Numbered from the stretch's first letter, positions 14,041-27,924 are shown. The stretch: 64,000 bases of DNA from Candidatus Hydrogenedentota bacterium (GCA_016182605.1 JACPGE010000055.1:1-64000); one strand, 5' to 3'. Translations and numbers: made by a program. The notes: generated by a model from the letters alone, not told the origin.

Positions 14041-15379
14041 GTTGGGGTCTCCTTTTTAGCGTGGGCGCGATCGTTGCACGCGCCAAATTGGGCGTAATAT
14101 CTTCGCGGATGCTTTTCACGATGCCGCCGGCGGCGTCGCTTGCGGCCCACGCTTGGTGCTCCGGACGCGCATCGTCCGCGGGGAGCACCTCGTGGAGGCC
14201 GGGGAAGACGAAATCGTAACCATTGCAATAGCCCAGCACGGCCACGTCGAGGGTGTTGTGTTGCAGGCGGATACTGCTTGCAGCCTGTGCGGTGAATTCG
14301 CCGGAGAGTCCCACAAGGAGCAACCGATCGTTGATGAGGCAGGTGGCTGCCGTCAGTGCGATGCGGTTGCCCTTGTAGCGGGGCAGATACGCTGCGGCGC
14401 GTTCGGGGCCGAGCAAGTTGTTGACCTCGAGGAGCACGGAAGGATTGCTCAGATTGGGCCGGGCCGGCGTGCGCACGAGTCCACTCGCATACGACAGATT
14501 GGGCTGCCTCGCGGCCACGCAGGCCAGTTGTTGCACAGCAGGGATGATCTGTTGGGCGAATTCGTGGCCCACGGCCGCGGTGGCATTTTCCGGAGCGACG
14601 GTGTCCTTCGGTGGCGCCGCATACTGGCGGTAGGCGGCGCCCTGCAGAAAGAGGCACGGCGCTCCGGTGGCAGACTGCACCTTGGCCGTGAGCACGCCGG
14701 GAAAATCCGCGCTGTAGCGCAGGTCTTCCGACGGGCGCGTGTCGGGATGACACGCAAAATTGATCCAGGTGGCGAGGGTGGTTTTTGCGGCGGTCTCCAG
14801 CTTGACGATCATGCAGGCGCCGTCCGCGGGGCGGCGTCCACCGGGCTCTTCGGGCTGCTGGATGCCGCTCAACTGTACAGTGCGCGAACCGAGTTGTACG
14901 GGCTCGAGGCGGACTTGGGCGTCGTTGATCGCATTGACCAGAAGGCCTTCGAGTTCGCCGTAGTAGCGTTTCAGGGCCTGACCCTGTGCATCCTCGGGCG
15001 TGACCGGCAGTACGGCGTCGAGTACCGGCGCGTTCTGCGTGTGCGTGGCCACGAGCATCACAAACGGCAGCCCCGTGTTGTCCATGATGCGCTGCATGAG
15101 CTTCGCTTCCGGCGGCCGCCCCAGATCGAGGCTGACGAGGGCGACGCGATGCTGTTCCGAAGCGATGATGAGCACCTTCGCCAGGAGCGGGTCGAGCGTG
15201 CCCGAGGCGGTGGGCAGGGGGCCGGGGGCGCCGTGGTAGCGCCACAGGGGCAGCATTTCTTTCGGCGTTATATCGCACTCGGCATAGGCCGCGCGCAGGC
15301 GCGCGTTTTCCCCCTGGGCATGCCATGCCGGCACACACAGCAGGAATAGGGCACAGGCGGCAAGCAGGGGCTTCATCAT
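14012..15379 (-). CDS. Neutral-ceramidase-like secreted protein (divergent HTQ motif)
   Basis: The 455-residue protein is a paralog of the downstream gene: signal peptide (ending WHA-QG), YAECDITPKEMLPLWRY, LDPLLAKVLIIA, ALVSLDLGRPP and NFACHPD. At the expected zinc site it has ATHTQNAP (His113-Thr-Gln115), where the downstream paralog has HTH. One candidate ligand is therefore changed and catalysis may differ or be lost. Its ATG overlaps the stop of the RDD gene (ATGA), which ties the ceramidase-like pair to the MoxR/SpoIIM envelope operon. It likely works in the periplasm or outside the cell on an N-acylated lipid or similar amide, which is an inference from the family. Confidence 0.78.
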   Translation of the reverse strand: MMKPLLAACALFLLCVPAWHAQGENARLRAAYAECDITPKEMLPLWRYHGAPGPLPTASGTLDPLLAKVLIIASEQHRVALVSLDLGRPPEAKLMQRIMDNTGLPFVMLVATHTQNAPVLDAVLPVTPEDAQGQALKRYYGELEGLLVNAINDAQVRLEPVQLGSRTVQLSGIQQPEEPGGRRPADGACMIVKLETAAKTTLATWINFACHPDTRPSEDLRYSADFPGVLTAKVQSATGAPCLFLQGAAYRQYAAPPKDTVAPENATAAVGHEFAQQIIPAVQQLACVAARQPNLSYASGLVRTPARPNLSNPSVLLEVNNLLGPERAAAYLPRYKGNRIALTAATCLINDRLLLVGLSGEFTAQAASSIRLQHNTLDVAVLGYCNGYDFVFPGLHEVLPADDARPEHQAWAASDAAGGIVKSIREDITPNLARATIAPTLKRRPQHDSTEAVEP

Positions 15380-16161
15380 GATGGTTCTGTCAGCTTCCGG
15401 TTGCGATAGAGCGTATCCACCGTGTTACGGAGATACTGCTCGTCACTCAGGCTTTCGGTGATCGTATCCGGGAAGGGTACCAGAGCGCGCAGAAAGGCCG
15501 CCACTTCATGATAGAGGGCCACCCGGGCGTCCGCGTTCAGTTCGTCCCGCCGGAACAGCAGGTCCACCAGGATGGCGGCCATCTCCGGGCTTACCTTTTG
15601 GCGCAGGCGCGCTTCGAGGTGGGGCGCCTGCCGGAAGGAGTTGTATTTGCCGGCCAGCACTTGGTGCACGTCGGGCGTTTCGCGCTTCGGCGTGTAGACC
15701 ACGATGGTGTTCGCCGCAAAATCGCCCAGCCGCTGGTTTTTCCGGTTGAGCAGCATGGCCGCGAGGCCTACACTGTAGAAAACCGGCAGGGCGTCTATCG
15801 TCCGCATCAGATTGCGCATGACGATCTGGGAGAAATGCAGCCGCAGCCCGTGCACATCCATCACCCGGATGCGCAGCAGGTGTTTCCCCGGCGTCTGCCC
15901 CGACCAGTACCATTCGCCTACGATGTTGTAGGCAAAATTCAGCAGGAAGATCGCAAGTATGGGAATGGCGGTCGTATAACCCGGCAGTACGGCGCCCGTA
16001 AAGCGGAAGAGGGCGCCCAGCGTGGATATGATGGCGAGAAAAAGCCCCATATCCACTGCCCAGGCCAGCAGGCGGCGCATGGGCCCCGCGAGAATCAACT
16101 GAAAGCGCACCCCTTCCGGGGTCCGTATGGTGATGGTGTCTTGCAGCGCCGCAGGGCTCAT
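15376..16161 (-). CDS. RDD-family membrane protein
   Basis: The 261-residue protein carries the RDD signature RRLLAWAVDMGLFLAI near residue 30, the second conserved patch GEWYWSGQTPGKHLLRIRVMD, and three to four membrane helices. A ~100-residue cytoplasmic C-terminal tail follows. The ATG at 16161 overlaps the stop of the SpoIIM-like gene (ATGA); the longer open frame upstream lies inside that gene. RDD proteins next to SpoIIM-like, DUF58 and MoxR genes are a known association in many bacteria, but the transported or bound substrate is not established. Confidence 0.88.
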   Translation of the reverse strand: MSPAALQDTITIRTPEGVRFQLILAGPMRRLLAWAVDMGLFLAIISTLGALFRFTGAVLPGYTTAIPILAIFLLNFAYNIVGEWYWSGQTPGKHLLRIRVMDVHGLRLHFSQIVMRNLMRTIDALPVFYSVGLAAMLLNRKNQRLGDFAANTIVVYTPKRETPDVHQVLAGKYNSFRQAPHLEARLRQKVSPEMAAILVDLLFRRDELNADARVALYHEVAAFLRALVPFPDTITESLSDEQYLRNTVDTLYRNRKLTEPS

Positions 16162-17189
16162 GAAGGTACACCGCCCGCCGGACCCGTCGCGCGCGCGCCC
16201 AGATCTTCCCGTCCGGACCGCGTCAGAAACCAGACCAGCGCCACCATTTCGATGCAGCCAAAGGCTATCTTGAGCGCATAGGGCAGCACGGGCTCGTGGT
16301 ACTGGGAGAAGAAGGCCTCGATGAGGCCCGCCCAGACCAGCATGACCGCCACCCCGTAGATCAGCAACATCAGGGAGGGGATTGTGCGGCGCATCCGCGC
16401 CCGGATGGGCTCGCGCGTGCCGAAGCCCACAAGCGCATTGCCCAGCACCAGGCCGGCCTGGCCCGCGAGCACGATGGCCGGAATCTCGATGGCCCCGTGC
16501 GGCAGGAGCCAGCCCAGGAGAAAGACGGTCTGGCCGTCCAGTATATAGTCGAGGGAGATCAGCCCCAGAATCATTCCGTTCATGAAAAGCAGCAGGACCG
16601 TGCCGAGGCCAAACGTGATGCCCGCGCACATGGTCATGATGCTGACGCGAATGTTGTTGACCATGAGCTGCGCCGAGAAGACCCCCATGTTCGCCTCCAA
16701 CTCTTCGATGCGTTCGCCTTGCTCTTCCTTCGCCACCCGATCCGACGGGCTGTTCAGGCCATGGCCGAAGGGCATGACCTGTTTGGAAGCGGGTTCCAGC
16801 GCGAAAATGATCATGCCCAGCAGCGTCCCCAGCAGGGTCACTCCCAGAGAGAGGGCAAAGGCCCGGGCATGGAGGCGCACCGCCCGGGGGAAGCCGAGCA
16901 AGAAGGCGTCCACCGGGTGAAAGCGCAGGGGGGACGTGCGCACCTCGTGGAGATCCCCATAGGCCTGCGCGATCAGTTGCTCCAGATACTGTTCCAGCGC
17001 TTCGTCTGTCGTGTGGGTGCGCACCTTCGCCAGGTCCGTCACCGTACGTTGATAAAGGTAGTGCAGGCGTTTCGCCTCGTCGAGGGTGAGCGCGCCGCTG
17101 CCGTGAAGCCGCAACTGTTGCAGGTGCCCCTCCAGCTCGTTCCAGGCCGGGCGTTCCTTCTGAATAAATTGCTCCACATCCAGGATCAT
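16158..17189 (-). CDS. Stage II sporulation protein M-like membrane protein (SpoIIM/DUF95)
   Basis: The 343-residue protein has a ~100-residue cytoplasmic helical N-terminus (FIQKERPAWNELEGHLQQL), then about six membrane helices with the family's central FMNGMILGLISLDYIL and WLLPHGAIEIPAIVLAGQAGL patch. SpoIIM is part of the peptidoglycan hydrolase complex in spore formers. In non-sporulating bacteria the homologue sits in MoxR/DUF58 operons and is thought to act in envelope work. ATGA overlaps bind it to both neighbours, and its start is fixed by the overlap at 17186-17189. Nothing else here suggests sporulation. Confidence 0.88.
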   Translation of the reverse strand: MILDVEQFIQKERPAWNELEGHLQQLRLHGSGALTLDEAKRLHYLYQRTVTDLAKVRTHTTDEALEQYLEQLIAQAYGDLHEVRTSPLRFHPVDAFLLGFPRAVRLHARAFALSLGVTLLGTLLGMIIFALEPASKQVMPFGHGLNSPSDRVAKEEQGERIEELEANMGVFSAQLMVNNIRVSIMTMCAGITFGLGTVLLLFMNGMILGLISLDYILDGQTVFLLGWLLPHGAIEIPAIVLAGQAGLVLGNALVGFGTREPIRARMRRTIPSLMLLIYGVAVMLVWAGLIEAFFSQYHEPVLPYALKIAFGCIEMVALVWFLTRSGREDLGARATGPAGGVPS

Positions 17190-18532
17190 AGAAGCTGCCG
17201 TTTCTTGATGTTCAAGTAATGCTCGATCACGTCGTTGCAGAGCTGCTCCTTCTGAAGCAAAAAGGCGCTCACGCCTTGACGGCTCAGGTTCCCTTGCAGT
17301 TCCCGCAACTGCTGCCACTGGAGGTGGCCGCCCAACTGCCCGTAGATGTCTTCCAGCGCGTCTGCTGGCGTCCCCGAGAACATCGGGCGCGCATTCGCCG
17401 GGGTGAGCAGGCACACCACGACGAGATGTTTGCGGGACAACAGATGGATGTTCGCGCAGAACTGCTCCGCCAGCATGGGATCGTCCAGGCTGGTGAAGAA
17501 AACCAGCAGAGCCCGGCGCCGCAAGACCTGCCGCAGATAGATGAACAACTCTTCGAAATCCGGATTGGCGTGGGTCGCCACCGTCTCCGTCAGCGCGTTG
17601 CGGCAGGCATTGAAGTGCCCCCGCCCCGCCCCCGCACGCAAGAACACGTTCACCTTGCTTGAGAAGGTCGCGAGCCCGAAACGATCATGCTGCCGGCCCG
17701 CCACGGCGGAAAGCAGGAGCGCCGTCGAAACGAAATGCTCCAGATAGGTGTCTTCGCGCGCCGCGTCACTTCCCGCGCCGAAATCGCGTGTGCTCAGGCG
17801 CGACGTGTCGATGATCGTGTAGACCTCCTGCACCTGTTCCAGTTGGTAGGTCTTCGTGACCGGTTTTCCACGCCGCGCGGTGCCCTTCCAGAAGATGTCC
17901 TCAAAACTGTCGCCAGGAAGATATTCCCGCAACTGCTCAAATTCCCTGCCGCGGCCCACCTGGCGCACCACGCGGGAACCCGCACCCGTACGGTGAAGGA
18001 ACATGGCCGCCGATTGGTGGCGCGCGTCGCCGAGGTTGGGGTGCACGTGAACGTCGCAGTGGGCGTTCAAGCGATGCCGTACCCGCCAGAGGCCCCAGGG
18101 TGAGGGCGCATCCGCGAATATCGTGTCCAGGAGAAAGCGTCCGCGCTTCCGCGGCGTCACGGGCCAGTGGACCCGGATGCGCTCCCCATCCCCGCCACTG
18201 CGGACGGAGAGGAATTCCTCCGCCAGGGCAATGTGGGCGGGCCAGGGAATACCCACCCGAAGCGTCATCGCCGGGCCGGGGAAAGCCGGAGTGCAGATCA
18301 GGGCCAGCTCCGCCGGAACATCTTTGAGCCAGGCGGCTTTCCCGGGCACTTCCACGGAGAAGGGCGCCGGACGCCGGGTGGCGCGAAGGGCGTCCAGCAC
18401 GAGGGCGAGGGCCAGCAGTAACAGCACGAGTACCGCGAAGGGCGCCGCTGCCGCGCTGTACGCATAGGCCAGGGCAGCCAGCACGCTCAGCACGCCCACC
18501 GTGAAGGCGAGTCTCGGCTCGGGCACGATCAT
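17186..18532 (-). CDS. DUF58 (von Willebrand A-like) protein of the first MoxR locus
   Basis: The 448-residue protein has two membrane helices near the N-terminus (about 9-50). The DUF58 core follows: GREFEQLREYLPGDSFEDIFWKGTARRGKPVTKTYQLE and IIDTSRLS at the start of a vWA-like fold. The metal site is only partly conserved (DTSRL instead of DxSxS). DUF58 proteins are the usual partners of MoxR ATPases and are thought to present a client protein for chaperoning or metal insertion. Both ends overlap neighbours as ATGA. The start at 18532 is fixed by the overlap and an upstream extension lies inside moxR. Confidence 0.9.
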   Translation of the reverse strand: MIVPEPRLAFTVGVLSVLAALAYAYSAAAAPFAVLVLLLLALALVLDALRATRRPAPFSVEVPGKAAWLKDVPAELALICTPAFPGPAMTLRVGIPWPAHIALAEEFLSVRSGGDGERIRVHWPVTPRKRGRFLLDTIFADAPSPWGLWRVRHRLNAHCDVHVHPNLGDARHQSAAMFLHRTGAGSRVVRQVGRGREFEQLREYLPGDSFEDIFWKGTARRGKPVTKTYQLEQVQEVYTIIDTSRLSTRDFGAGSDAAREDTYLEHFVSTALLLSAVAGRQHDRFGLATFSSKVNVFLRAGAGRGHFNACRNALTETVATHANPDFEELFIYLRQVLRRRALLVFFTSLDDPMLAEQFCANIHLLSRKHLVVVCLLTPANARPMFSGTPADALEDIYGQLGGHLQWQQLRELQGNLSRQGVSAFLLQKEQLCNDVIEHYLNIKKRQLL

Positions 18533-19488
18533 CGCGGTACGGCCACGTCTTCGAGCAGGCGGCTGACCACCTCGCCACAACTCAGGCCTTCGATCTCAAA
18601 CTCAGGCCGCAAGACGAGCCGGTGCTCCAGCACGGCGTGGGCCATGCTTTTCACATCGTCGGGCGTCACAAAATCACGCTTGTTCAGTATGGCCTGCACC
18701 CGGCACGCCTGAATCAGCCCCTGCGTGGCCCGCGGCCCCGCGCCCACCAGCACGCTGGGGTGGGTGCGCGACGAACGCACCACCTGCACGGCATAGCGGA
18801 GGATCTCCTCCCGCACGGTGATCGCCTCTATACCCGCGCGCACGGCAACCAGCATGTCCGCCGTGATGATCGGCGTGACGGCCCCCGATCGCAGCACCCG
18901 ATCGGGCGCCTGGTCGTTCATGCTGCGCTGGGCCAGCAAGTGCTCTTCATCGGCGGAGGGATAGTCCATGTTGATCTTCAGCAGAAAGCGATCCTTCTGC
19001 GCCTCGGGAAGCGGGTAGGTGCCTTCGTACTCGACGGGGTTTTGCGTTGCGAATACCGTGAAGTGAGGGGAGAGGGGCAGCGTGTCGCGGTCTATCGTCA
19101 CGGTGCGCTCCTGCATGGCCTGCAATAGGGCCGACTGGGTCTTGGCGGGCGCGCGGTTGATCTCATCCGCCAGCAGGAAGGTCGTGAAGATGGGGCCCTG
19201 GACCAGCGTGAAGCCATTGTCCTTCAGGCTGAATACGTTCGTGCCGGTGATGTCTGTCGGCATGAGATCGGGCGTAAACTGAATCCGGTTGAAATCGCAG
19301 TCCACCACGCGGGCCAGGGTGCGCACCAGGAGGGTTTTCGCGATTCCCGGAACCCCCTCGATCAGCGCGTGCTGGTTCGTAAACAGGGTGATGAGCGCCT
19401 GATCGATCACCGCCTCCTGGCCAATGATCACCTTCTGAATCTCGGTTCGCGCCCGCTCAAGCTGCTCATAAATCGTGTGAATGTTCAT
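18529..19488 (-). CDS. MoxR-family AAA+ ATPase (first locus)
   Basis: The 319-residue protein has Walker A GVPGIAKT (45-52), where the usual GxGKT is GIAKT, Walker B LLADEIN (105-111) with Asp108-Glu109, sensor-1 Asn150 in FATQNP, and a DRF arginine at 167. The C-terminal lid domain has VLVGAGPRATQGLIQACRV. MoxR ATPases act with vWA-domain partners as chaperones, here most likely the overlapping DUF58 protein. It overlaps the DUF4350 gene upstream and the DUF58 gene downstream, each by 4 nt. Confidence 0.95.
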   Translation of the reverse strand: MNIHTIYEQLERARTEIQKVIIGQEAVIDQALITLFTNQHALIEGVPGIAKTLLVRTLARVVDCDFNRIQFTPDLMPTDITGTNVFSLKDNGFTLVQGPIFTTFLLADEINRAPAKTQSALLQAMQERTVTIDRDTLPLSPHFTVFATQNPVEYEGTYPLPEAQKDRFLLKINMDYPSADEEHLLAQRSMNDQAPDRVLRSGAVTPIITADMLVAVRAGIEAITVREEILRYAVQVVRSSRTHPSVLVGAGPRATQGLIQACRVQAILNKRDFVTPDDVKSMAHAVLEHRLVLRPEFEIEGLSCGEVVSRLLEDVAVPR

Positions 19489-20762
19489 GGTGTTCCTGCG
19501 TTATCCTTCGTTGATGTGCTGAACGGCTTTCCGGCGCTGCCCGGCGTGCGGGACAACTGCAACTGAAGCGCACGGTACGCGGCCACCGCGGCCGCGGCCG
19601 ATTTGCCCGTGGGCGCCACACGCGGCACGGGCGCATGGGGATGCGACCGGCTCCACTCCGAGACACACGTGGCGACAATGCGATCCGGCGGGATGCTCCG
19701 GTGCAAGAGCGACACGAGCACGAACGATGCGTCCCGGCTCCGGTGCTCATACTGTTCGGCATCGTCCTCCGCCAGGCTGTGCCGCGGCACCACGGAGTAG
19801 GCCGCACGCCACGCCAGCAGCGCTGCCGTGATCAGCAGCGCCAGCAAGAGCCCGTGCAGCCGGAAGCGAATGATGAATTTCATGAAACCGGGCTGCTCCT
19901 GCAGGCCCAGGTGGGACTCGCTGAAGATTACCCGGTGGTAATCGCCCAGGAGCCAGGAAACATAGGGGGCGCACGCAGCGTCTCGCACACCCTCATTCGT
20001 GAGGAGATAGCTGTCGCTGCTGAGGACCACACTGCCCGCTCCGAAGCGGCGTTCCATCACCACCGCCTCGCCCTGCCGTTCATAGATCACGGTCCACTCC
20101 GGCGCGGCCTCTGTGAAGACTATTTCAGAACTCCACGGTACCGTTTCGGGCAATACGCCGGAGGGCACGACACGCGTTGCATTTTCCGGCGGCCATTCGC
20201 TGCTCTCCTCATCCTCGAATTCACGGACGGCGTAGGTGAATCCCCAGCGCGCACTGATGTCCACCGTCGGTTCCTCATCACCCTCACCCTCACCTTCTCC
20301 ACCAGCTTCACCTTCTCCCTCACCATCATCATCACCTTCATCCGGCTTCTCTTCCTCATCCGGTGCTTCTTCCGCCCAGAGGATTAGTTCGAGTTCGTCA
20401 GGACGATCCCAGCCGGCGAAAGAGATCACGACGCGGCTGCCGCGTTCCAGCTCCTTTTCGAAACGTTCCAGCATGGATTCGGGATCGGGTCCATAGGCCG
20501 CGCCGCTCAGCAGGACCACTGAGGGTTCTTCCAGCTCAAAGAAATAGAGATCGGTGTGGAGCCGCTCCACCAACAATGCCGGCTGACTGGCGAGGGCGTT
20601 GTGGAGGGCCTGGGTCCCTGTGGGATCGATGCGCAAGGAGGAGTGAGGCGGGAAGGCTTCGTCGTACGCGGCGTTGTGCCGGTATATCCCATAGAGGGGA
20701 ATCGCGCACACCACAATGAGTACCAGAAGGGCCATAGTCAGAAGGAATGGCTTAGCGTGCAT
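19485..20762 (-). CDS. DUF4350-type membrane protein with acidic Gly-Glu stretch
   Basis: The 425-residue protein has an N-terminal membrane helix (about 7-27), an extracytoplasmic DUF4350-like domain with GTQALHNALA and VVLLSGAAYG patterns, a second helix near 300-320 (LLLALLITAALLAWRAAY), and a cytoplasmic tail. At about 140-168 the domain is interrupted by a very acidic Asp/Gly/Glu run with alternating Gly-Glu, similar in style to the stalk of the beta-helix protein at 3.3 kb. DUF4350 proteins are regular members of MoxR operons and may bind a small ligand through a GATase-like fold. It overlaps DUF4129 by 11 nt and moxR by 4 nt. Confidence 0.82.
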   Translation of the reverse strand: MHAKPFLLTMALLVLIVVCAIPLYGIYRHNAAYDEAFPPHSSLRIDPTGTQALHNALASQPALLVERLHTDLYFFELEEPSVVLLSGAAYGPDPESMLERFEKELERGSRVVISFAGWDRPDELELILWAEEAPDEEEKPDEGDDDGEGEGEAGGEGEGEGDEEPTVDISARWGFTYAVREFEDEESSEWPPENATRVVPSGVLPETVPWSSEIVFTEAAPEWTVIYERQGEAVVMERRFGAGSVVLSSDSYLLTNEGVRDAACAPYVSWLLGDYHRVIFSESHLGLQEQPGFMKFIIRFRLHGLLLALLITAALLAWRAAYSVVPRHSLAEDDAEQYEHRSRDASFVLVSLLHRSIPPDRIVATCVSEWSRSHPHAPVPRVAPTGKSAAAAVAAYRALQLQLSRTPGSAGKPFSTSTKDNAGTP

Positions 20763-22530
20763 GGGCCTGCAATGCCTCCTTCACCGTACGGAAGATCTGC
20801 GCGTCGTCCGCCTGGGCCTCGCGGGTGCCGTACCACGCCGTCTCGAAAAGTTCGATCGCTTGGGCGAAGGCGCCCGCGCCGTTGGCAGGCGCCGCCGTTC
20901 TACGCCGGGTCTCCTGAAGATAGTCCAGGTTGGTCTTGGAACGCTTGATCGCGATCCGGCCCGCCGCGGCTTCCTGCGCCAGGATGGACAGGAAAAACGC
21001 GCGCATTGCCAGGCGGTAGCTCCCCTCACGGAGCAGGTTTTCGGCCATGCTCAGCCAGGCGTCCTCGGGCAACGCGTCGGCCTGGGTTGACTCATCGGCG
21101 ACATCCACCGTTTCCGTCCCGATTGCAGTGGCCAAGCTCATGCCGCGGGAGGCGCCGTCGCGCAGCCAGGTGCGAAGGGCGGTCACGATGACATAGAGGA
21201 GCAGCAGACAGACCAGTACGATAAGCGCAACGATGACCGTCCGCAGCACGGGATTTCCACCTGCTTCGCCTTCGGGCTGGGCCGCCGGGTCGTCTGCGCC
21301 GAAGAACCAATCCCAGAGGTCATTCACAATGTCCCACACATAACGCAGCGAGTCCAAACAGAACTCCAGTACATCCTGCGCCACCTGCACGACATAGAGC
21401 GTCGCCGTGCTCTCCGGCACCACACGGTTTTCTTTCCACAGGTAGTCCGGACGTTCCAGTTCGATGTCCAGGGCTTGGCGCAGGGCGTCCGGGTTAATGC
21501 TTGCCGGACCGGCGGGCGTCGTGACTTCCTGCGCCGTGGCCGTGGAGAACAGCGTGTTACCCCACACACTGAAGAGTATCAACAAAAGGGAGAGGGTCTG
21601 GCAACTTCGTTTCCACTTGAGGCGCAGGTCCGCCCCGGTTGCCCGCGACTCACCCTCGTAGTAGCGGATAACGTAGGCCGCTTTCAGGAGCGGGTCGAGG
21701 ACGAGATAGAGCAGGCCCACGGCCATGGCGACCGTCGTGGTGTTGATCAATTGACTGGACGAGTAAAGCGTGAAGAAGGAAGCGCCGGAAAGCGCGTCAA
21801 AGAGTGACACCACGAAATAGAACGTGGCACAGATCATGGCCAGAGCGACCACGGCCACCAGGCTGGCCAGGAAAATGGCGAGGCCGATCAACAGGGTGAA
21901 GAAGAAGAGCATCAGGTAAATGGGCTCGGGAAGAAAGTACTCCAGGATGGGGGCGAAACCAATCAGGGCCATGGCAAACCAGATCGGCAGGTGGGGGCTG
22001 AGTATCCAAAGCAAGACCGTGTTCTGTCTGGGCCACAGTTGCGCGTGGCGGATCACCTCGCCGCGCCATTGCGCAGGTGATTGCCCGGCCCGGTCGGGCA
22101 CGATGGAGGCATACTGGTAGGCGGCCAGGGCCCAGGGCAGCGCCACGGTTAACAGGAACGCCAGGGGCAGGAGGAACCAGCCCGTGGCATGGACGAAGAG
22201 CTGGCGCGCGCTTACCCGTATCCATTCGCGCAAGGTCACATTGGGCAAGGGCGCCTCCAGCAACTGGGCGCTCAGGGCCTGGCAAAAACAGTACTGCCAC
22301 CCCTTCATCCACCCGTAGAGCGCGGTGAGCAGCGCGCTACCCCACCCCAGAAGCTCGATTGCATCGCCCCGGTTCGCCATGGAGGCCCAGAACCAGATCA
22401 GGGCCGCGCAAAAAGGAATGCTCCCCAGATAATAGAGAAACCAGGTGGCGAGCGGTACGGTCCGCGCCAGCGCCAGGGCGGACTCCACCAGCGCCAGGCC
22501 CGTGCACGTTTGACGATAGCCCTGCGCCAT
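20752..22530 (-). CDS. Polytopic membrane protein with C-terminal DUF4129 domain
   Basis: The 592-residue protein has about seven N-terminal membrane helices, an extracytoplasmic segment of ~110 residues, another helix at about 428-450 (TVIVALIVLVCLLLLYVIV), and a cytoplasmic C-terminal DUF4129 domain. That domain carries EDAWLSMAENLLREGSYRLAMRAFFLSILAQE, KTNLDYLQETRRR and FETAWYG. DUF4129 regularly accompanies MoxR, DUF58 and DUF4350 and is also found at the end of transglutaminase proteins. Its ATG overlaps the stop of the B-box gene by one base (TGATG). In the usual gene order it would help link the MoxR/DUF58 chaperone to the membrane. Confidence 0.85.
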   Translation of the reverse strand: MAQGYRQTCTGLALVESALALARTVPLATWFLYYLGSIPFCAALIWFWASMANRGDAIELLGWGSALLTALYGWMKGWQYCFCQALSAQLLEAPLPNVTLREWIRVSARQLFVHATGWFLLPLAFLLTVALPWALAAYQYASIVPDRAGQSPAQWRGEVIRHAQLWPRQNTVLLWILSPHLPIWFAMALIGFAPILEYFLPEPIYLMLFFFTLLIGLAIFLASLVAVVALAMICATFYFVVSLFDALSGASFFTLYSSSQLINTTTVAMAVGLLYLVLDPLLKAAYVIRYYEGESRATGADLRLKWKRSCQTLSLLLILFSVWGNTLFSTATAQEVTTPAGPASINPDALRQALDIELERPDYLWKENRVVPESTATLYVVQVAQDVLEFCLDSLRYVWDIVNDLWDWFFGADDPAAQPEGEAGGNPVLRTVIVALIVLVCLLLLYVIVTALRTWLRDGASRGMSLATAIGTETVDVADESTQADALPEDAWLSMAENLLREGSYRLAMRAFFLSILAQEAAAGRIAIKRSKTNLDYLQETRRRTAAPANGAGAFAQAIELFETAWYGTREAQADDAQIFRTVKEALQAHAR

Positions 22531-22874
22531 CAGGGCTCCTCCTCGTCAAGCACATCCAGCATGCTGGCGACGTTGTTGAAAATATACTCGTGGCTGGCCG
22601 TAGGCGTGGCCACCAGGCTTCTCCCCGCGGTGTAGAAGACGGCCCAGAGCAACACCAGGCCGAATATGGCCTCTGCACCGCGCCGCAACCCTCCCCACGA
22701 GCGCTTCGCTCCTGAGACCTCGGTGAAGCGCGCGCGCAGACACGCGGCGCAAAGGAGACGCCCCTCATGTTCGGAAATGCACTCCCGGCAATAGTCGCTG
22801 CCGCACGAGGGACAGCGTGCCACCGCCTCCCGATGGGGGTGATTCTCGCAATGTTTGTGAGGAAGGGCTGCCAT
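22530..22874 (-). CDS. Small B-box-type zinc-binding membrane protein
   Basis: The 114-residue protein starts with a Cys/His cluster typical of B-box zinc fingers (CENHPHREAVARCPSCGSDY, then CRECISEHEGRLLCAACLRA). One transmembrane helix follows at about 68-84 (AIFGLVLLWAVFYTAG) and then an acidic C-terminal tail. The same finger type appears in the two zinc-ribbon/TM proteins further up the operon. The start is taken at 22874, 17 nt after the upstream stop; the upstream open frame has no coding character. Probably a cytoplasmic metal-stabilised interaction module anchored in the membrane; partner unknown. Confidence 0.75.
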   Translation of the reverse strand: MAALPHKHCENHPHREAVARCPSCGSDYCRECISEHEGRLLCAACLRARFTEVSGAKRSWGGLRRGAEAIFGLVLLWAVFYTAGRSLVATPTASHEYIFNNVASMLDVLDEEEP

Positions 22875-22891: not shown

Positions 22892-23908
22892 TTAAGTAGA
22901 GGCCATCGTCGCGCCGGTGGACGCCACTGCGGAAAGCGAGCGCCGATGGAAGAATACTGTCATGAGCCCGGCCAGTCCAAGCACGGTGAATACGCCAAAG
23001 AACGTCCAGGCCGCCAGGGCCACCGCTATGGGGTCGATGGGCATGGCCGCTCCTTCCTGCGAAGTGCCCGCCTGCACCATGGACAGCAGGTAGAAGAGCG
23101 GCACCAGGGCCACGAGCGTGGCCGCCACCAGAACGCGGATCGCCCTGGAAACGGGCCGTGTGAAGTGGCGGATCTGGAGGCCCGTGGCACTCCAGAGGAG
23201 CGTCACCGTCATCAGGGCGGTCACCACGTTTATCGCACGTTCGGCAATCGGATTGTTTTCCATCTGGGGGAGGTCGAGGAGAACGATGACAACGGCCAGC
23301 AACAGCACGCCGGCAAAGTAGCCGAGATGGAGCAGCCCCGTGTCCGCCGGTTTGGGCGTGCCCGCGCCTTGGGGAAGGGCGCACTTCCGGCCGGCGAGGC
23401 TCCGTTCCCCGGTGGCGCTCCTGTTTCGCTGCGCTTCCTGAATCAGCGGCATCAGACGGTTCAGCGCCCGGTTCGCGCGGCGGACGCGGTCCAGCGACTT
23501 GAGGTGTTCCTCGTGCACCGCGGTATAGAGCACCGTCTTGCATGTGGGGCCGAGGAAAAGGTTCATCATACAAACCAGCAGGGCAAAGACCCCGATCGCA
23601 GCAGCGATCACGTTGATGGAGGAGTCGGGCAGCGGTGAGTATTGGGGGAAGTAGACGCCGGCCGTGGCCACGAGGATCATAAGCAGTCCTGCGGCCGCGG
23701 TGAGTCCTGCTGCGTAGAGCCCACGGCGCGTTTTCTCTATCGTGATCATTTCGATCTCGTCCAGAAAATAGCGCCGCACGTGATCGATGTAGCCCTTGCG
23801 CTCCCGGCTCAGGAGGTAGTCTTCCGCCAGTTCCAGGGTGTATCTGGCGCCTCGCTTCAAAGCGTAGGGGTTCAGGCCGCCGGGAAATTTTTTCGGTTTC
23901 GCGGCCAT
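22892..23908 (-). CDS. Membrane protein of unknown function (second copy of triplet member C, extended)
   Basis: The 338-residue protein has a ~60-residue cytoplasmic N-terminus (KRGARYTLELAEDYLLSRERKGYIDHVRRYFLDEIEMITIEKTRRG), two helices, a conserved patch LFLGPTCKTVLYTAVHEEHLKSLDRVRRA, then four more helices. Residues ~15-165 clearly match the shorter protein at 25186-25740, where the same patch reads VLMGATCRTIIRTRAHSEHVKSLSRERIA. The extra C-terminal half exists only in this copy. It is separated from the zinc-ribbon gene by 1 nt. I know no named family. Confidence 0.78.
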   Translation of the reverse strand: MAAKPKKFPGGLNPYALKRGARYTLELAEDYLLSRERKGYIDHVRRYFLDEIEMITIEKTRRGLYAAGLTAAAGLLMILVATAGVYFPQYSPLPDSSINVIAAAIGVFALLVCMMNLFLGPTCKTVLYTAVHEEHLKSLDRVRRANRALNRLMPLIQEAQRNRSATGERSLAGRKCALPQGAGTPKPADTGLLHLGYFAGVLLLAVVIVLLDLPQMENNPIAERAINVVTALMTVTLLWSATGLQIRHFTRPVSRAIRVLVAATLVALVPLFYLLSMVQAGTSQEGAAMPIDPIAVALAAWTFFGVFTVLGLAGLMTVFFHRRSLSAVASTGATMAST

Positions 23909-23909
23909 G

Positions 23910-24398
23910 TCATCCTCCCACTTCGCTGGCGATGGCGACGATGATGCCGATGATCATGAACACGAATGGCAGGACCAGCAGAATGGCCAGCGCCAACGAC
24001 GAGACGATGATGGAGCGGTAGTGGGGCTGCAAGCTGGGCTCAAAGAGGCGGATTGTCCCGCGCTTGCCGCGCTTCTGGTTCGCCTCGAAAAAGGTCTCCA
24101 GACAACCCGTGCACCAGGTCTGTTGCAGGTGAATCACGCTGCACATACCACAGAGATAGCGGCCGCAATGGCAGCAGAGCCCGTCTGCGGCATGCTCTTC
24201 ATGATAGAAACAGCTTGCGTCGCCCTGTTCCCGATCGACAGGACGGGACGGCGCCGCCGCGTGCGCCATATCGAGCGCGGGAAAACACTGCACCCGGATC
24301 CAGACCCCGCAGGCAGGGCAATCACCGGTATAGTCTCTTTCCGCGGCCGCTCCCCCGATGGGGGTCTGACAATGGGGGCAATTGCGTGCGTCTTGCAT
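23910..24398 (-). CDS. Zinc-ribbon/B-box membrane protein (second copy of triplet member B)
   Basis: The 162-residue protein has a zinc ribbon (CPHCQTPIGGAAAERDYTGDCPAC, about 7-30). A B-box-like cluster follows (CFYHEEHAADGLCCHCGRYLC...WCTGCLETF, about 63-102) and then one C-terminal membrane helix (IIVSSLALAILLVLPFVFMIIGIIV). It aligns along its length with the protein at 25740-26225. Zinc ligands are all present, so folding is likely intact. It lies 7 nt after the GYF-RDD gene and 1 nt before its membrane partner. Confidence 0.78.
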   Translation of the reverse strand: MQDARNCPHCQTPIGGAAAERDYTGDCPACGVWIRVQCFPALDMAHAAAPSRPVDREQGDASCFYHEEHAADGLCCHCGRYLCGMCSVIHLQQTWCTGCLETFFEANQKRGKRGTIRLFEPSLQPHYRSIIVSSLALAILLVLPFVFMIIGIIVAIASEVGG

Positions 24399-24405
24399 GT
24401 CGTGC

Positions 24406-25137
24406 CTATTCCTGTATGACCAGCGTTTCGCAGATGCGATCGTGCAGGGCGCGATGCCGCGGATCGTAGAATGCGAGGAGAAATCCGATTAACAGAATCA
24501 TGCCGCTGAGATAGCGCGCGAAATAGCGCCCCGCGGCACGCAGATAGCTCACCCGGCTGCCATCGCTCACGATCACGCGCATGCCGAAGATCATCTTGCC
24601 GGGGGTTGCGCCGAAGCGCCCCAGGAACCAGATCTCATACGCGAGCGCCAGTGCAACGCCCAGCACCAGCGTGAAGGCGTAGTAAAACGTCACCAGCCAC
24701 GTCTCATCGCTGAGGGCCATCGAGGCCAACGAGATCCCCACAAGCAGGTTGACGCACCCGGCCAGCACCTGGTCCAGCATGACCGCCAGGAAACGGCGCC
24801 CGATCGATGCCGGCGTTTTTTCCGAGGGGCGCGGCGTTCCCTGAAAGAGGCGCTGGAAGAAATACCCCTTACAGGCCGCGCACACCGAATCGCCCACGAA
24901 GCGCAGCGATTCCGGCAGCGGCGCCGGCGCGCCGCATTCCGCACACGTCACGAGTATCTTGGGATGCTGTGCGGCCCCCGTTATGTCCGGGAGGGCGGAA
25001 AGGGGCTTCCAGTCGGGCAGATCGGAATTCCAGACCAGTGTGTCCGCCGAGATCTCGCCCGACTGAATCAGTGCCTCAAAGGTGGCCTGATCCACCGGGC
25101 CGTGCTGTCCGTTCTTGGCTGCGTAGTGCCAGTTCAA
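24406..25137 (-). CDS. GYF_2-zinc finger-RDD membrane protein (second copy of triplet member A)
   Basis: The 243-residue protein combines a GYF_2 domain (WHYAAKNGQHGPVDQATFEALIQSGEI..TLVWNSDLPDW, about 3-45), a four-cysteine finger (CAECGAP...CAACKGYFF, about 65-93), and an RDD membrane domain (IGRRFLAVMLDQVLAG, then GRFGATPGKMIFGMRVI). The start is TTG at 25137, as in its paralog; no ATG or GTG is available near the domain start. GYF_2 domains bind proline-rich or similar peptide segments, so this is likely a membrane adaptor. It begins 48 nt after the end of the first triplet. Confidence 0.82.
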   Translation of the reverse strand: MNWHYAAKNGQHGPVDQATFEALIQSGEISADTLVWNSDLPDWKPLSALPDITGAAQHPKILVTCAECGAPAPLPESLRFVGDSVCAACKGYFFQRLFQGTPRPSEKTPASIGRRFLAVMLDQVLAGCVNLLVGISLASMALSDETWLVTFYYAFTLVLGVALALAYEIWFLGRFGATPGKMIFGMRVIVSDGSRVSYLRAAGRYFARYLSGMILLIGFLLAFYDPRHRALHDRICETLVIQE

Positions 25138-25185
25138 TGCCTTGTTTCCTCACACGTTCTTTTGGTGCAGGGGGAGCTAATCTCA

Positions 25186-25740
25186 TCATTCAGGCCCGGG
25201 GAGCGCGTCGTCTTCTTGTTCGGTGTCTGGAACGGCCCGCTCCACGGCGAGGCCCCGTTGCGCTTCGCGTATTGCCGGCTCCAGCATCTTCAGGGCGCGC
25301 AGGGCGATGCGCTCCCGGGAAAGGGATTTAACATGCTCGCTGTGGGCACGCGTACGGATGATGGTTCTGCACGTTGCGCCCATCAAGACGTTCAAGATCG
25401 CCCCTCCACAGAGGGGCGCGGTGATCAAGAGCGTCACCGGATTCAAGAAGATGCCTCCGGGGCCATTCAGACTTTCCGTCAACGCGAGCACCGCGTAGGT
25501 CAGTACAAGCACGCCGAGGGCCAGAGATGCCAGTACTGCCGTGATCAAGAGAGCGCGCCGGGTTCGCTGAAGGGTGATCTGTTCGATATCCACCAGAAAG
25601 AGCCGGCGGTGCTGATACGTGAGCCCGGTGTTCCCCCTGCACAACACATGATCCGGCGTCAGATGGAGGGCATAGCCCTGGGCGTGGCCCACGAGCCGCG
25701 CCATCAGGCCCCCAGGTATATTTTTCATCGTGTCCGCCAT
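25186..25740 (-). CDS. Membrane protein of unknown function (first copy of triplet member C, short)
   Basis: The 184-residue protein has a cytoplasmic N-terminus (DHVLCRGNTGLTYQHRRLFLVDIEQITLQRTRRA), two membrane helices (about 63-120), then the conserved segment NVLMGATCRTIIRTRAHSEHVKSL and a charged tail. It is the short paralog of the 338-residue protein at 22892-23908. Start and upstream stop overlap as TGATG. The cytoplasmic N-terminal part ahead of the first helix resembles a PH-like fold in spacing only, so I leave the function open. Confidence 0.75.
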   Translation of the reverse strand: MADTMKNIPGGLMARLVGHAQGYALHLTPDHVLCRGNTGLTYQHRRLFLVDIEQITLQRTRRALLITAVLASLALGVLVLTYAVLALTESLNGPGGIFLNPVTLLITAPLCGGAILNVLMGATCRTIIRTRAHSEHVKSLSRERIALRALKMLEPAIREAQRGLAVERAVPDTEQEDDALPGPE

Positions 25741-26225
25741 CAGATGGGGGCTCCCGAGAAACTCAGAAAGAAGGCAATGAGGAAGGCGATGATCGGAAGT
25801 GCAAGAAAGCCCAGGACGAGCACGCCCAATAGGACAAGTGTCGTGTAATTCCAGCGTTGGGCGCCCATTAGAATGTTGTCAGGGTCTTGGTCTTTGCCCG
25901 CGCGCACCTGCTCGTCAAAGCGTTCCAGGCACGCCGTGCAATAGACTTTGCCCCCCAGGTACACGGCGCACACCGCGCAGAGATAGCGGCCGCAATGGCA
26001 GCAGGGCGCTTCGGCGGTATGCTTCTCATGATAGAAGCAGGTGGCCGCACCCTCCATCGCTGGCACTGGGCGCGCCGGGGGGGCACTGGGGCTCGTGTAT
26101 AAGGCCGGAAAGTCCAGCACCAGAATGGGCGTTCGGCAGGCCGGGCAGGGCGTCAGGGTTTTCAGTCCGGCCGCGTCTGGCCTCAGCGGGCCGGAACACC
26201 GGGGACAAGTTTGGGGACGCTTCAT
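25740..26225 (-). CDS. Zinc-ribbon/B-box membrane protein (first copy of triplet member B)
   Basis: The 161-residue protein starts MKRPQTCPRCSGPL with a zinc ribbon closing at PCPACRTPI. A B-box-like cluster follows (CFYHEKHTAEAPCCHCGRYLC...YCTACLERF) and then a C-terminal membrane helix (TTLVLLGVLVLGFLALPIIAFLIAFFL). The start at 26225 is set by the ATGA overlap with the GYF-RDD gene; the longer frame upstream runs inside that gene. It is the counterpart of the protein at 23910-24398. Confidence 0.78.
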   Translation of the reverse strand: MKRPQTCPRCSGPLRPDAAGLKTLTPCPACRTPILVLDFPALYTSPSAPPARPVPAMEGAATCFYHEKHTAEAPCCHCGRYLCAVCAVYLGGKVYCTACLERFDEQVRAGKDQDPDNILMGAQRWNYTTLVLLGVLVLGFLALPIIAFLIAFFLSFSGAPI

Positions 26226-26971
26226 CGCTGTGGCGCCTTCATGATGACCCTCGTCGAGCATATGTAGTCATGGAGTGTGCGCTTCTGGACGTCGGGGATG
26301 GCGATGAGGTAACCCACATAGAGGATGGATGCACTCAGGATGTTCGCAAAGAAGCGCCCAAAGGCGCGCAGGTAGGAGACTTTGGATCCGTCTTCCGTCA
26401 CCACGATTAGGCCGAGGGCCATTTTTCCCGGTGTGGCCGCGAATCGGCCAGTGAACCACGTCTCGTAGACTATCTGCAGGGCGAAGGAAAAAAGATAGAA
26501 TAGGGCAAAGAGGCCCACAGCGGCTTCCTCACTCATGTCGAAGGCAAAGAGCAGGGGTGTCAAAATCGCGCTGAATAGCCCCGTGGCCGCGCTGCAAATG
26601 ACCATGTCCAACACGCGTGCAAGAAAACGCTTCCACATGGGGGCAAAACTCATGGCGCCCGGTGCGGCTGTGCCCTGGTAAACCCCCAGGAAGTAGACAT
26701 CCTTGCACTCCGGGCAGACCACGTCGTCCCTGAATCGCAGCAATTCATCCGGGTTTACGGCACGCCCGCATGCACGGCAGAACTCCAGCACCTCCGCTCC
26801 GGGCAGGGGCGGTACGGATGCAAGGATCTCGCCCAGCGGCTGCCAATCCGTCATGGACGAATTCCAGACCAGGGTTGCGTCCGATATGGTCCCTGAGATG
26901 CGCAGCCGTTCAAAAGTCTGATCATTAACCGGGCCAAGCTGCTGCCCGTCGCGCGCGTAGTACCACTCCAA
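26222..26971 (-). CDS. GYF_2-zinc finger-RDD membrane protein (first copy of triplet member A, operon head)
   Basis: The 249-residue protein opens the 15-gene operon. Domains are GYF_2 (WYYARDGQQLGPVNDQTFERLRISGTI..TLVWNSSMTDW), a four-cysteine finger (CRACGRA...CPECKDVYF), and RDD (MWKRFLARVLDMVICS, GRFAATPGKMALGLIVV). It starts with TTG at 26971: an in-frame stop lies five codons upstream and GAGG sits 10 nt before the TTG. It shares clear end-to-end similarity with the 24406-25137 product. Co-translation with the zinc-ribbon partner is set by an ATGA overlap. Confidence 0.83.
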   Translation of the reverse strand: MEWYYARDGQQLGPVNDQTFERLRISGTISDATLVWNSSMTDWQPLGEILASVPPLPGAEVLEFCRACGRAVNPDELLRFRDDVVCPECKDVYFLGVYQGTAAPGAMSFAPMWKRFLARVLDMVICSAATGLFSAILTPLLFAFDMSEEAAVGLFALFYLFSFALQIVYETWFTGRFAATPGKMALGLIVVTEDGSKVSYLRAFGRFFANILSASILYVGYLIAIPDVQKRTLHDYICSTRVIMKAPQR

Positions 26972-27120: not shown

Positions 27121-27924
27121 ATGACGGAGTTTGGCGGACAGGTGATTGTGGTTACGGGGGCCAGTGAAGGCATTGGCCGGGCATTTTGTCTCGCACTCGC
27201 CCCGCAGGGCGTCAAGTTTGCCCTTGCGGCACGCAATGAGGAACGGCTTCAGTCGTTGAAGGAAGAAGTCGTGGCCCTCGGCAGCGAGGCCCTGATTCTG
27301 CCCACGGACGTGACGGACGAGAGGGCCTGCAAGCAGCTTATCGAGCAGACTGTGGCGGCATGGGGGAGAATCGACGTGCTCGTGAACAACGCGGGCGGCA
27401 CCATGTGGACCATCTTCGAAGAGATCACGGACCTGTCGCTCTTTGAACGGCTGATGCGGCTCAACTACCTGAGTTGTGTCTACACGACCTACCATGCGTT
27501 GCCGTATCTAAAAGCTTCGAAGGGGCGCATCATGGCGATGTCGAGCGTGGCGGGGCTTACGGGGGTCCCCACCCGTACGGGCTACGCGGCGGCCAAACAC
27601 GCCATGTTTGGTTTCTTCGATTCGCTGCGCATCGAGCTGGCGCCCCATGGCGTTTCCGTGACGATGGTGGCGCCGGGTTTTGTACTTTCGGAGATCCACC
27701 GCCGCGCGCTGGGCAGCGACGGCAGGGCTATAGGCAAGAGCCCCATGAAGGCGGACAAGATCATGACCGCCGAAGCCTGCGCGGCCCTCATGGTGGAGGC
27801 GCTCTCGCGGCGTCAGCGCCTTCTGCTGCCGTCGGCCCGTGGCCGGCTTGCGCGCTGGCTGAAACTCATAGCGCCTGCAAGGATGGACGCCCTCGCCGCC
27901 AAGGCCATTCGCGAAAAAAAATAG
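27121..27924 (+). CDS. Short-chain dehydrogenase/reductase
   Basis: The 267-residue protein is a classical SDR. It has the cofactor motif TGASEGIG (12-19), NNAG (89-92), structural Asn115, and catalytic Ser142, Tyr155 and Lys159 (YAAAK). No acidic residue stands at the end of beta-2 (AARNEERL follows), which favours NADP(H). The C-terminal tail KLIAPARMDALAAKAIREKK is basic and could associate with membrane. A GGAG ribosome site precedes the ATG. The gene is divergent from the 15-gene operon with 149 bp between them. The substrate is unknown; similarity of style to fatty-acyl or sphingoid ketoreductases is only suggestive. Confidence 0.9.
   Translation: MTEFGGQVIVVTGASEGIGRAFCLALAPQGVKFALAARNEERLQSLKEEVVALGSEALILPTDVTDERACKQLIEQTVAAWGRIDVLVNNAGGTMWTIFEEITDLSLFERLMRLNYLSCVYTTYHALPYLKASKGRIMAMSSVAGLTGVPTRTGYAAAKHAMFGFFDSLRIELAPHGVSVTMVAPGFVLSEIHRRALGSDGRAIGKSPMKADKIMTAEACAALMVEALSRRQRLLLPSARGRLARWLKLIAPARMDALAAKAIREKK

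Follow-up and report, generated by a model that had tools for sequence, protein, structure and literature searches.

Tandem duplication of a GYF-RDD/B-box/membrane-protein triplet at the front of a ten-gene MoxR-DUF58-SpoIIM-RDD cassette

Gene layout at the operon head

The window analyzed here is a stretch of 64,000 nucleotides from a Candidatus Hydrogenedentota bacterium (GCA_016182605.1 JACPGE010000055.1:1-64000). Thirteen genes are located on its minus strand from position 26971 down to 15376, where the operon ends, and they are spaced by -11 to +48 nt. The head of the operon (22892-26971, minus strand) is formed by two head-to-tail triplets, each encoding a GYF-zinc ribbon-RDD protein, a zinc ribbon-B-box-TM protein and a membrane protein (MEM), and all six ORFs were found intact, as the initial annotation had described. 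The genes are as follows:

26222..26971, minus strand: GYFRDD_A, 249 aa; GYF_2, CxxC/CxxC zinc ribbon and RDD membrane domain (Pfam GYF_2 8e-14, RDD 4.6e-26, above cut-off)
25740..26225, minus strand: BBOX_A, 161 aa; zinc ribbon, B-box (CHC6) and TM (alignment; zinc ligands all kept)
25186..25740, minus strand: MEM_A, 184 aa; short form, predicted split PH-like domain with TM hairpin (AlphaFold model, pLDDT 89.4, pTM 0.77)
24406..25137, minus strand: GYFRDD_B, 243 aa; paralogue of GYFRDD_A (Pfam GYF_2 4e-15, RDD 1e-25, above cut-off)
23910..24398, minus strand: BBOX_B, 162 aa; paralogue of BBOX_A
22892..23908, minus strand: MEM_B, 338 aa; long form, predicted split PH-like domain with extra C-terminal helices (AlphaFold model, pLDDT 86.5)
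22530..22874, minus strand: BBOX_C (B-box2), 114 aa; second B-box/TM gene of the cassette (ANCHR-like_BBOX 4.7e-5, zf-B_box 8.5e-4, both below the Pfam cut-off)
20752..22530, minus strand: DUF4129 multi-TM protein, 592 aa (Pfam 1.7e-7)
19485..20762, minus strand: DUF4350 membrane-anchored protein, 425 aa (Pfam 1.1e-9)
18529..19488, minus strand: MoxR AAA+ ATPase, 319 aa (Pfam AAA_3 5e-61; Walker A GVPGIAKT and Walker B LLADEIN intact)
17186..18532, minus strand: DUF58 vWA-type protein, 448 aa (Pfam DUF58 2.4e-17)
16158..17189, minus strand: SpoIIM membrane protein, 343 aa (Pfam 3.8e-33)
15376..16161, minus strand: RDD membrane protein, 261 aa, final gene of the cassette (Pfam 3e-21)

The two members of each pair are clear paralogues, with identities of 46% (GYF-RDD), 34% (B-box) and 35% (MEM, over 161 aa) and z values of 84, 44 and 30 against shuffles. 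The third pair differs in length (184 against 338 aa) because MEM_B carries extra C-terminal helices. The genes had also been described as fused by overlaps; this holds for the tightly packed core genes from the end of the front end through RDD (-1 to -11 nt), but the front-end genes are spaced in order by -4, -1, +48, +7, +1 and +17 nt, which leaves a 48-nt gap from one triplet to the next and a 17-nt gap from the second triplet to BBOX_C. Both GYF-RDD genes have TTG starts with good SD-like sequences (GAGGTGA for GYFRDD_A), and a W-Y-Y-x beginning is common to the aligned GYF-RDD homologues. The promoter and terminator scan gave nothing above chance level.

Conservation and co-inheritance of the ten-gene cassette

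The neighborhoods of a first set of 60 relatives were inspected. GYFRDD_A alone gave no matches as a query for related loci; the B-box alignment succeeded, and with it the GTDB collection was scanned and the best 80 of 214 relatives were used. The two sets overlap: several contigs from the window's own order recur in the GTDB scan as Candidatus Hydrogenedentota, among them L108 (the contig of G033) and L169 (that of G036), and this assigns the window to the phylum. One triplet followed by B-box2 was found to be the fixed front end of a conserved cassette with the order GYF-RDD / B-box / MEM / B-box2 / DUF4129 / DUF4350 / MoxR / DUF58 / SpoIIM / RDD. The initial annotation had taken the triplet itself as the unit at the operon head and missed BBOX_C (22530-22874); the real unit includes this fourth gene, and the doubling is local. 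In about 20 same-order genomes, a single triplet with a long MEM stands ahead of B-box2-DUF4129-DUF4350-MoxR-DUF58-SpoIIM-RDD.

The cassette is present in at least eight bacterial phyla, and its order is fixed in about 80 loci. The best 80 of 214 relatives belong to Verrucomicrobiota (29), Thermodesulfobacteriota (24), Hydrogenedentota (5), Nitrospirota (4), Acidobacteriota (3), Lentisphaerota (1) and Poribacteria (1), together with Myxococcota-labelled (7) and Pseudomonadota-labelled (3) genomes. Among these 80, MEM directly follows B-box in 73 of 75 testable loci and B-box2 directly follows MEM in 67 of 68. The automatically derived figures for an upstream GYF gene (66/72) and a downstream DUF4129 gene (52/58) count some threshold misses as absences. 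Genuine departures are of two kinds: at L125, L127 and L131 the core and the front end lie apart, and at L160 and L165 the B-box gene is not followed by MEM. An intact triplet unlinked from the core was also seen in G001, G004, G006, G026 and G007, which suggests that the triplet may work apart from MoxR as well.

The tie to the MoxR/DUF58/SpoIIM/RDD module proposed in the initial annotation is strongly supported by co-inheritance, with MEM and the core DUF4350 co-occurring in two phyla, although the physical linkage is looser than had been assumed. Of 98 genomes sampled evenly from the order to which one desulfobacterial genome belongs, 24 contained MEM. The cassette DUF4350 was present in 23 of the 24 MEM-positive and in 0 of 56 MEM-negative genomes of this order (Fisher p 4e-19), and in a Verrucomicrobiota order of 75 genomes the same 14 carry both genes (14/14 against 0/61, p 2e-15), p-values that overstate the evidence because related genomes are not phylogenetically independent. 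When both orders were pooled, DUF4350 was found in 0 of 117 MEM-negative genomes. For several MEM/DUF4350 pairs the two genes are on different contigs, and about 1.5 Mb separates them in Desulfonema magnum (G061), so the co-inheritance is not a mere restatement of linkage. In the Hydrogenedentota set, searches with MEM_B and with DUF4129 each detected 10 of 27 genomes, nine of them in common; the mismatches were G003, in which the HMM does detect MEM, and G014, in which MEM is located at a contig end. Profile searches combined with neighborhoods did not find the triplet proteins scattered singly.

Within the concatenated-triplet tree the two window copies are sisters (100/100) on long branches, and the MEM-only tree agrees on this (SH-aLRT 86). 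A second complete triplet in tandem was not found in the approximately 110 other loci examined. The sequence comparisons thus identify the doubled triplet as a lineage-specific duplication, its copies being sisters at 34-46% identity. Tandem GYF-RDD genes alone recur at L114, L126, L148, L184 and G005:C348. Two non-adjacent triplets, one with a short and one with a long MEM, occur in three relatives: G001 (L036 short, L068 long), G021 (L066 short, L039 long) and G007 (L056 short, L065 long). The window repeats this pairing of short and long MEM, but in tandem. MEM lengths are bimodal, with classes of about 150-245 and 313-392 aa. The tree, which is weakly resolved, requires 15 changes between the short and long states; this suggests repeated loss or gain of the C-terminal helices, although no well-supported branch contradicts a single origin.

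Features of the component proteins

No family above cut-off was found for MEM in Pfam or NCBIfam. The initial annotation had named a conserved [MG]xTC[KR]T patch, which the alignments do not bear out: the actual family motif is GPTC followed by TAV, within the set ExYKRFYFxDIQAI, GPTC and TAVQxExL. The AlphaFold models of MEM_A and MEM_B (pTM 0.58 for the latter) run through four strands, then a TM hairpin, two more strands and a long helix, with further helices beyond a low-confidence linker in MEM_B. A PH-like domain, in which a C-terminal helix closes a beta sheet or sandwich, would show this order of elements if a membrane hairpin interrupted it; only six strands were called, and the fit was assessed by element order rather than by three-dimensional packing. 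When the MEM_A model was compared with the PDB by Foldseek, the best E value was 0.66 and no match was significant; many PH/PTB-like domains appeared in the top list, including the N-terminal domain of SSRP1 (TMt 0.61). Helical membrane proteins dominated the hits of the long MEM model, and the MEM profile found no convincing relative among PDB sequences. Pfam DUF6232 (PF19744) gave a weak match below cut-off in 1 of 53 MEM members (E 0.009), and in the genome of the window it had no hit, the controls being silent as well. The layout of DUF6232 consists of PH-like strands flanking a TM hairpin, a likeness MEM shares with this and other bacterial PH-like membrane proteins by prediction, although MEM is without a Pfam-level match and has its own motifs. 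Taken from the models, MEM is likely to be a PH-like domain interrupted by a TM hairpin.

Eleven of the 31 short MEM proteins end in Pro-rich, PPx-hydrophobic-like motifs (2.3 expected from shuffling), a pattern that was picked post hoc in related rows. These tails may be a lead to a GYF ligand; MEM_A of the window ends without one.

The eight zinc ligands of the C-H-C6 set are invariant in 195 B-boxes of both kinds, which suggests structural zinc. The Pfam cut-off for zf-B_box was not reached by BBOX_C (19.9 against 24.1 bits), and BBOX_A and BBOX_B gave no zf-B_box match. Bacterial B-box domains of the prokaryotic treble-clef type have reportedly been proposed as partners of membrane proteins (Burroughs, Iyer and Aravind 2011); the cassette differs in having two B-box genes, and in their tie to a MoxR core instead of to peptidases. 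Both GYF-RDD copies passed the Pfam cut-offs for GYF_2 and RDD. NCBIfam gave no useful match for the front-end proteins, with a weak GltJ match on the GYF part only.

As for the core, MoxR with its intact Walker A and B motifs is encoded in one operon with adjacent DUF58, SpoIIM and RDD genes, which places it in the MoxR-DUF58-SpoIIM-RDD module. The canonical MIDAS DxSxS is absent from the DUF58 protein of the window, which has DTSRLS (D-x-S-R-L-S) instead; the change is relevant to metal binding but does not affect assignment to the gene cluster. DxSRL was seen in nearly all variants listed in an alignment of 60 cassette DUF58 proteins, and D-x-S-R-L is a possible signature of the cassette subtype.

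Relation to known systems and candidate functions

Clusters of the core type are already known. RDD, SpoIIM, DUF58, MoxR and DUF4350 are shared with actinobacterial clusters and carry consecutive locus numbers, together with a further membrane gene, in mycobacterial Rv3689-Rv3695 / MAB_0386c-0392c, according to the annotation table of PMC8191103; within that table, which permits comparison by annotation rather than DNA, the GYF-RDD, B-box, MEM and B-box2 front end does not appear. Archaeal clusters of DUF4350 (arCOG01314), MoxR/GvpN and vWA likewise combine a membrane-anchored DUF4350 protein with MoxR and vWA, but they carry Ig-like and S-layer proteins, and GYF, B-box or MEM genes are not mentioned in the relevant excerpts of PMC5898192. 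The claim that the triplet had not been described before agrees with the literature searched, in which no description was found of a MoxR, DUF58, SpoIIM and RDD cluster or of a GYF, B-box and RDD combination, nor of the four-gene front end or the ten-gene unit, which is weak evidence given that most subscription papers lay outside it.

An adaptor or recruitment role of the front end would fit its domain make-up. GYF-RDD, B-box/TM, split-PH MEM and B-box2/TM together may make a membrane-embedded platform, whose presumably cytoplasmic GYF, zinc-ribbon/B-box and PH-like domains would bind client peptides or proteins. The clients would be passed to the MoxR-DUF58 AAA+/vWA chaperone pair, which would remodel or assemble a membrane complex of SpoIIM, RDD, DUF4129 and DUF4350. 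After the duplication there would be two platforms, one whose short MEM lacks the extra C-terminal helices and one with the long form, probably serving different clients or states. We judge the chances of such a client-docking platform to be evenly balanced, and favor it because of the domain make-up and because MoxR-vWA pairs act as chaperone and co-chaperone (PMC7159879, PMC12067865). SpoIIM homologues adjoin vWA and COG0714 ATPase genes (PMC5898192).

As regards the front end, the chief competing view is a secretion or membrane-remodelling machine in which the front-end RDD, MEM and B-box proteins would be parts of an export channel rather than client adaptors; for the cassette as a whole, such a role would be compatible with docking. 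Makarova et al. predict a machine of this kind for the archaeal DUF4350, MoxR/GvpN and vWA clusters (PMC5898192), the majority of the ten proteins resemble membrane proteins, and PH-like membrane proteins have been implicated in leaderless bacteriocin export (PMC8657885). However, the zinc fingers and GYF are recognition rather than channel domains, and cassette profiles revealed no additional member of the conserved order, for example a secreted partner; we regard an export channel as unlikely, yet a serious competitor. The presence of RDD domains in two kinds of cassette protein could instead point to an ion or envelope-stress sensor or regulator, in which RDD ion antiporters and zinc fingers acting as metal or redox sensors would tune the MoxR core. 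RDD proteins have been reported as Na+/H+ antiporters. Ion sensing, however, needs neither GYF nor PH-like domains, and the invariant zinc ligands speak for structural zinc, which makes this reading improbable.

An anti-phage conflict system of the MoxR-vWA type was rejected as very improbable. Ternary conflict systems (PMC7159879) resemble the cassette in combining a MoxR AAA+ protein, a vWA-type partner and a third component, and MoxR matches their bpMoxR Pfam family (5e-12), but its AAA_3 match is far stronger (5e-61). PADLOC gave no match except one of 0.0015 over the RDD region of one protein, and no effector domain, variable third component or VMAP/iSTAND component was recognized in the cassette. 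Unlike the conflict systems described so far, which vary, the cassette keeps a rigid gene order from phylum to phylum.

The docking-platform reading can be extended, at somewhat below an even chance, to a hitherto undescribed membrane machine encoded by ten genes in many phyla, with a GYF/zinc-ribbon/B-box/split-PH platform of four proteins that would select clients for MoxR-DUF58 building or remodelling the SpoIIM/RDD complex. MoxR-SpoIIM-RDD clusters are widespread and unexplained, and the co-inherited four-gene front end offers handles (zinc fingers, GYF and PH-like domains) on the target of the machine. The named and completely sequenced Desulfonema magnum 4be13 has front end and core at different places, which allows split and fused forms to be compared. 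MEM adds a protein family without a match among Pfam entries, with a predicted PH-like domain broken by a membrane hairpin. If the proposed role is true, the GYF, zinc-ribbon, B-box and split-PH platform would use domain types better known from eukaryotic adaptor proteins.

Separation of the front end from the MoxR core

The front end (the GYF-RDD, B-box and MEM triplet plus B-box2) and the MoxR-centred core were found apart at loci L125, L127 (Desulfonema magnum) and L131, with a distance of about 7 kb between MEM and B-box2 at L131. Among the Hydrogenedentota relatives, full triplets lay apart from the MoxR core at L036, L037, L064, L066, L056, L065, L048, L067 and L068, and no conserved neighbours of the triplets at these nine loci were seen in the ORF lists. 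A short-chain dehydrogenase gene adjoins the window operon, and a similar gene adjoins a detached triplet of genome G026, which hints at an ancient common location for the two:
27121-27924 (+), window, short-chain dehydrogenase
L048:4409-5209 (-), G026, short-chain dehydrogenase

Additional gene copies

Elsewhere in the window's own genome, a second DUF4350 gene (G000:C45:55302-56069) exceeded the Pfam cut-off, suggesting a further system of the cassette's general kind. Tandem repeats of GYF-RDD genes alone were observed across several lineages (L049 [G005:C348], L184, L126, L148 and L114).

Sequence motifs in MEM and DUF58

A PPx-hydrophobic-like motif, the pattern being chosen post hoc after inspection of the tails, was present at the C-terminal end of 11 of the 31 short MEM proteins (L113-L187). 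This motif is a possible ligand of the adjacent GYF domain.

In the window DUF58 protein (17186-18532), the MIDAS motif DxSxS was replaced by D-x-S-R-L-S, a substitution that made up nearly all of the variants listed among 60 cassette DUF58 proteins (loci L108-L187). Given this replacement, metal binding by the cassette DUF58 may be altered; D-x-S-R-L-S is also a possible marker of the cassette's MoxR subtype.
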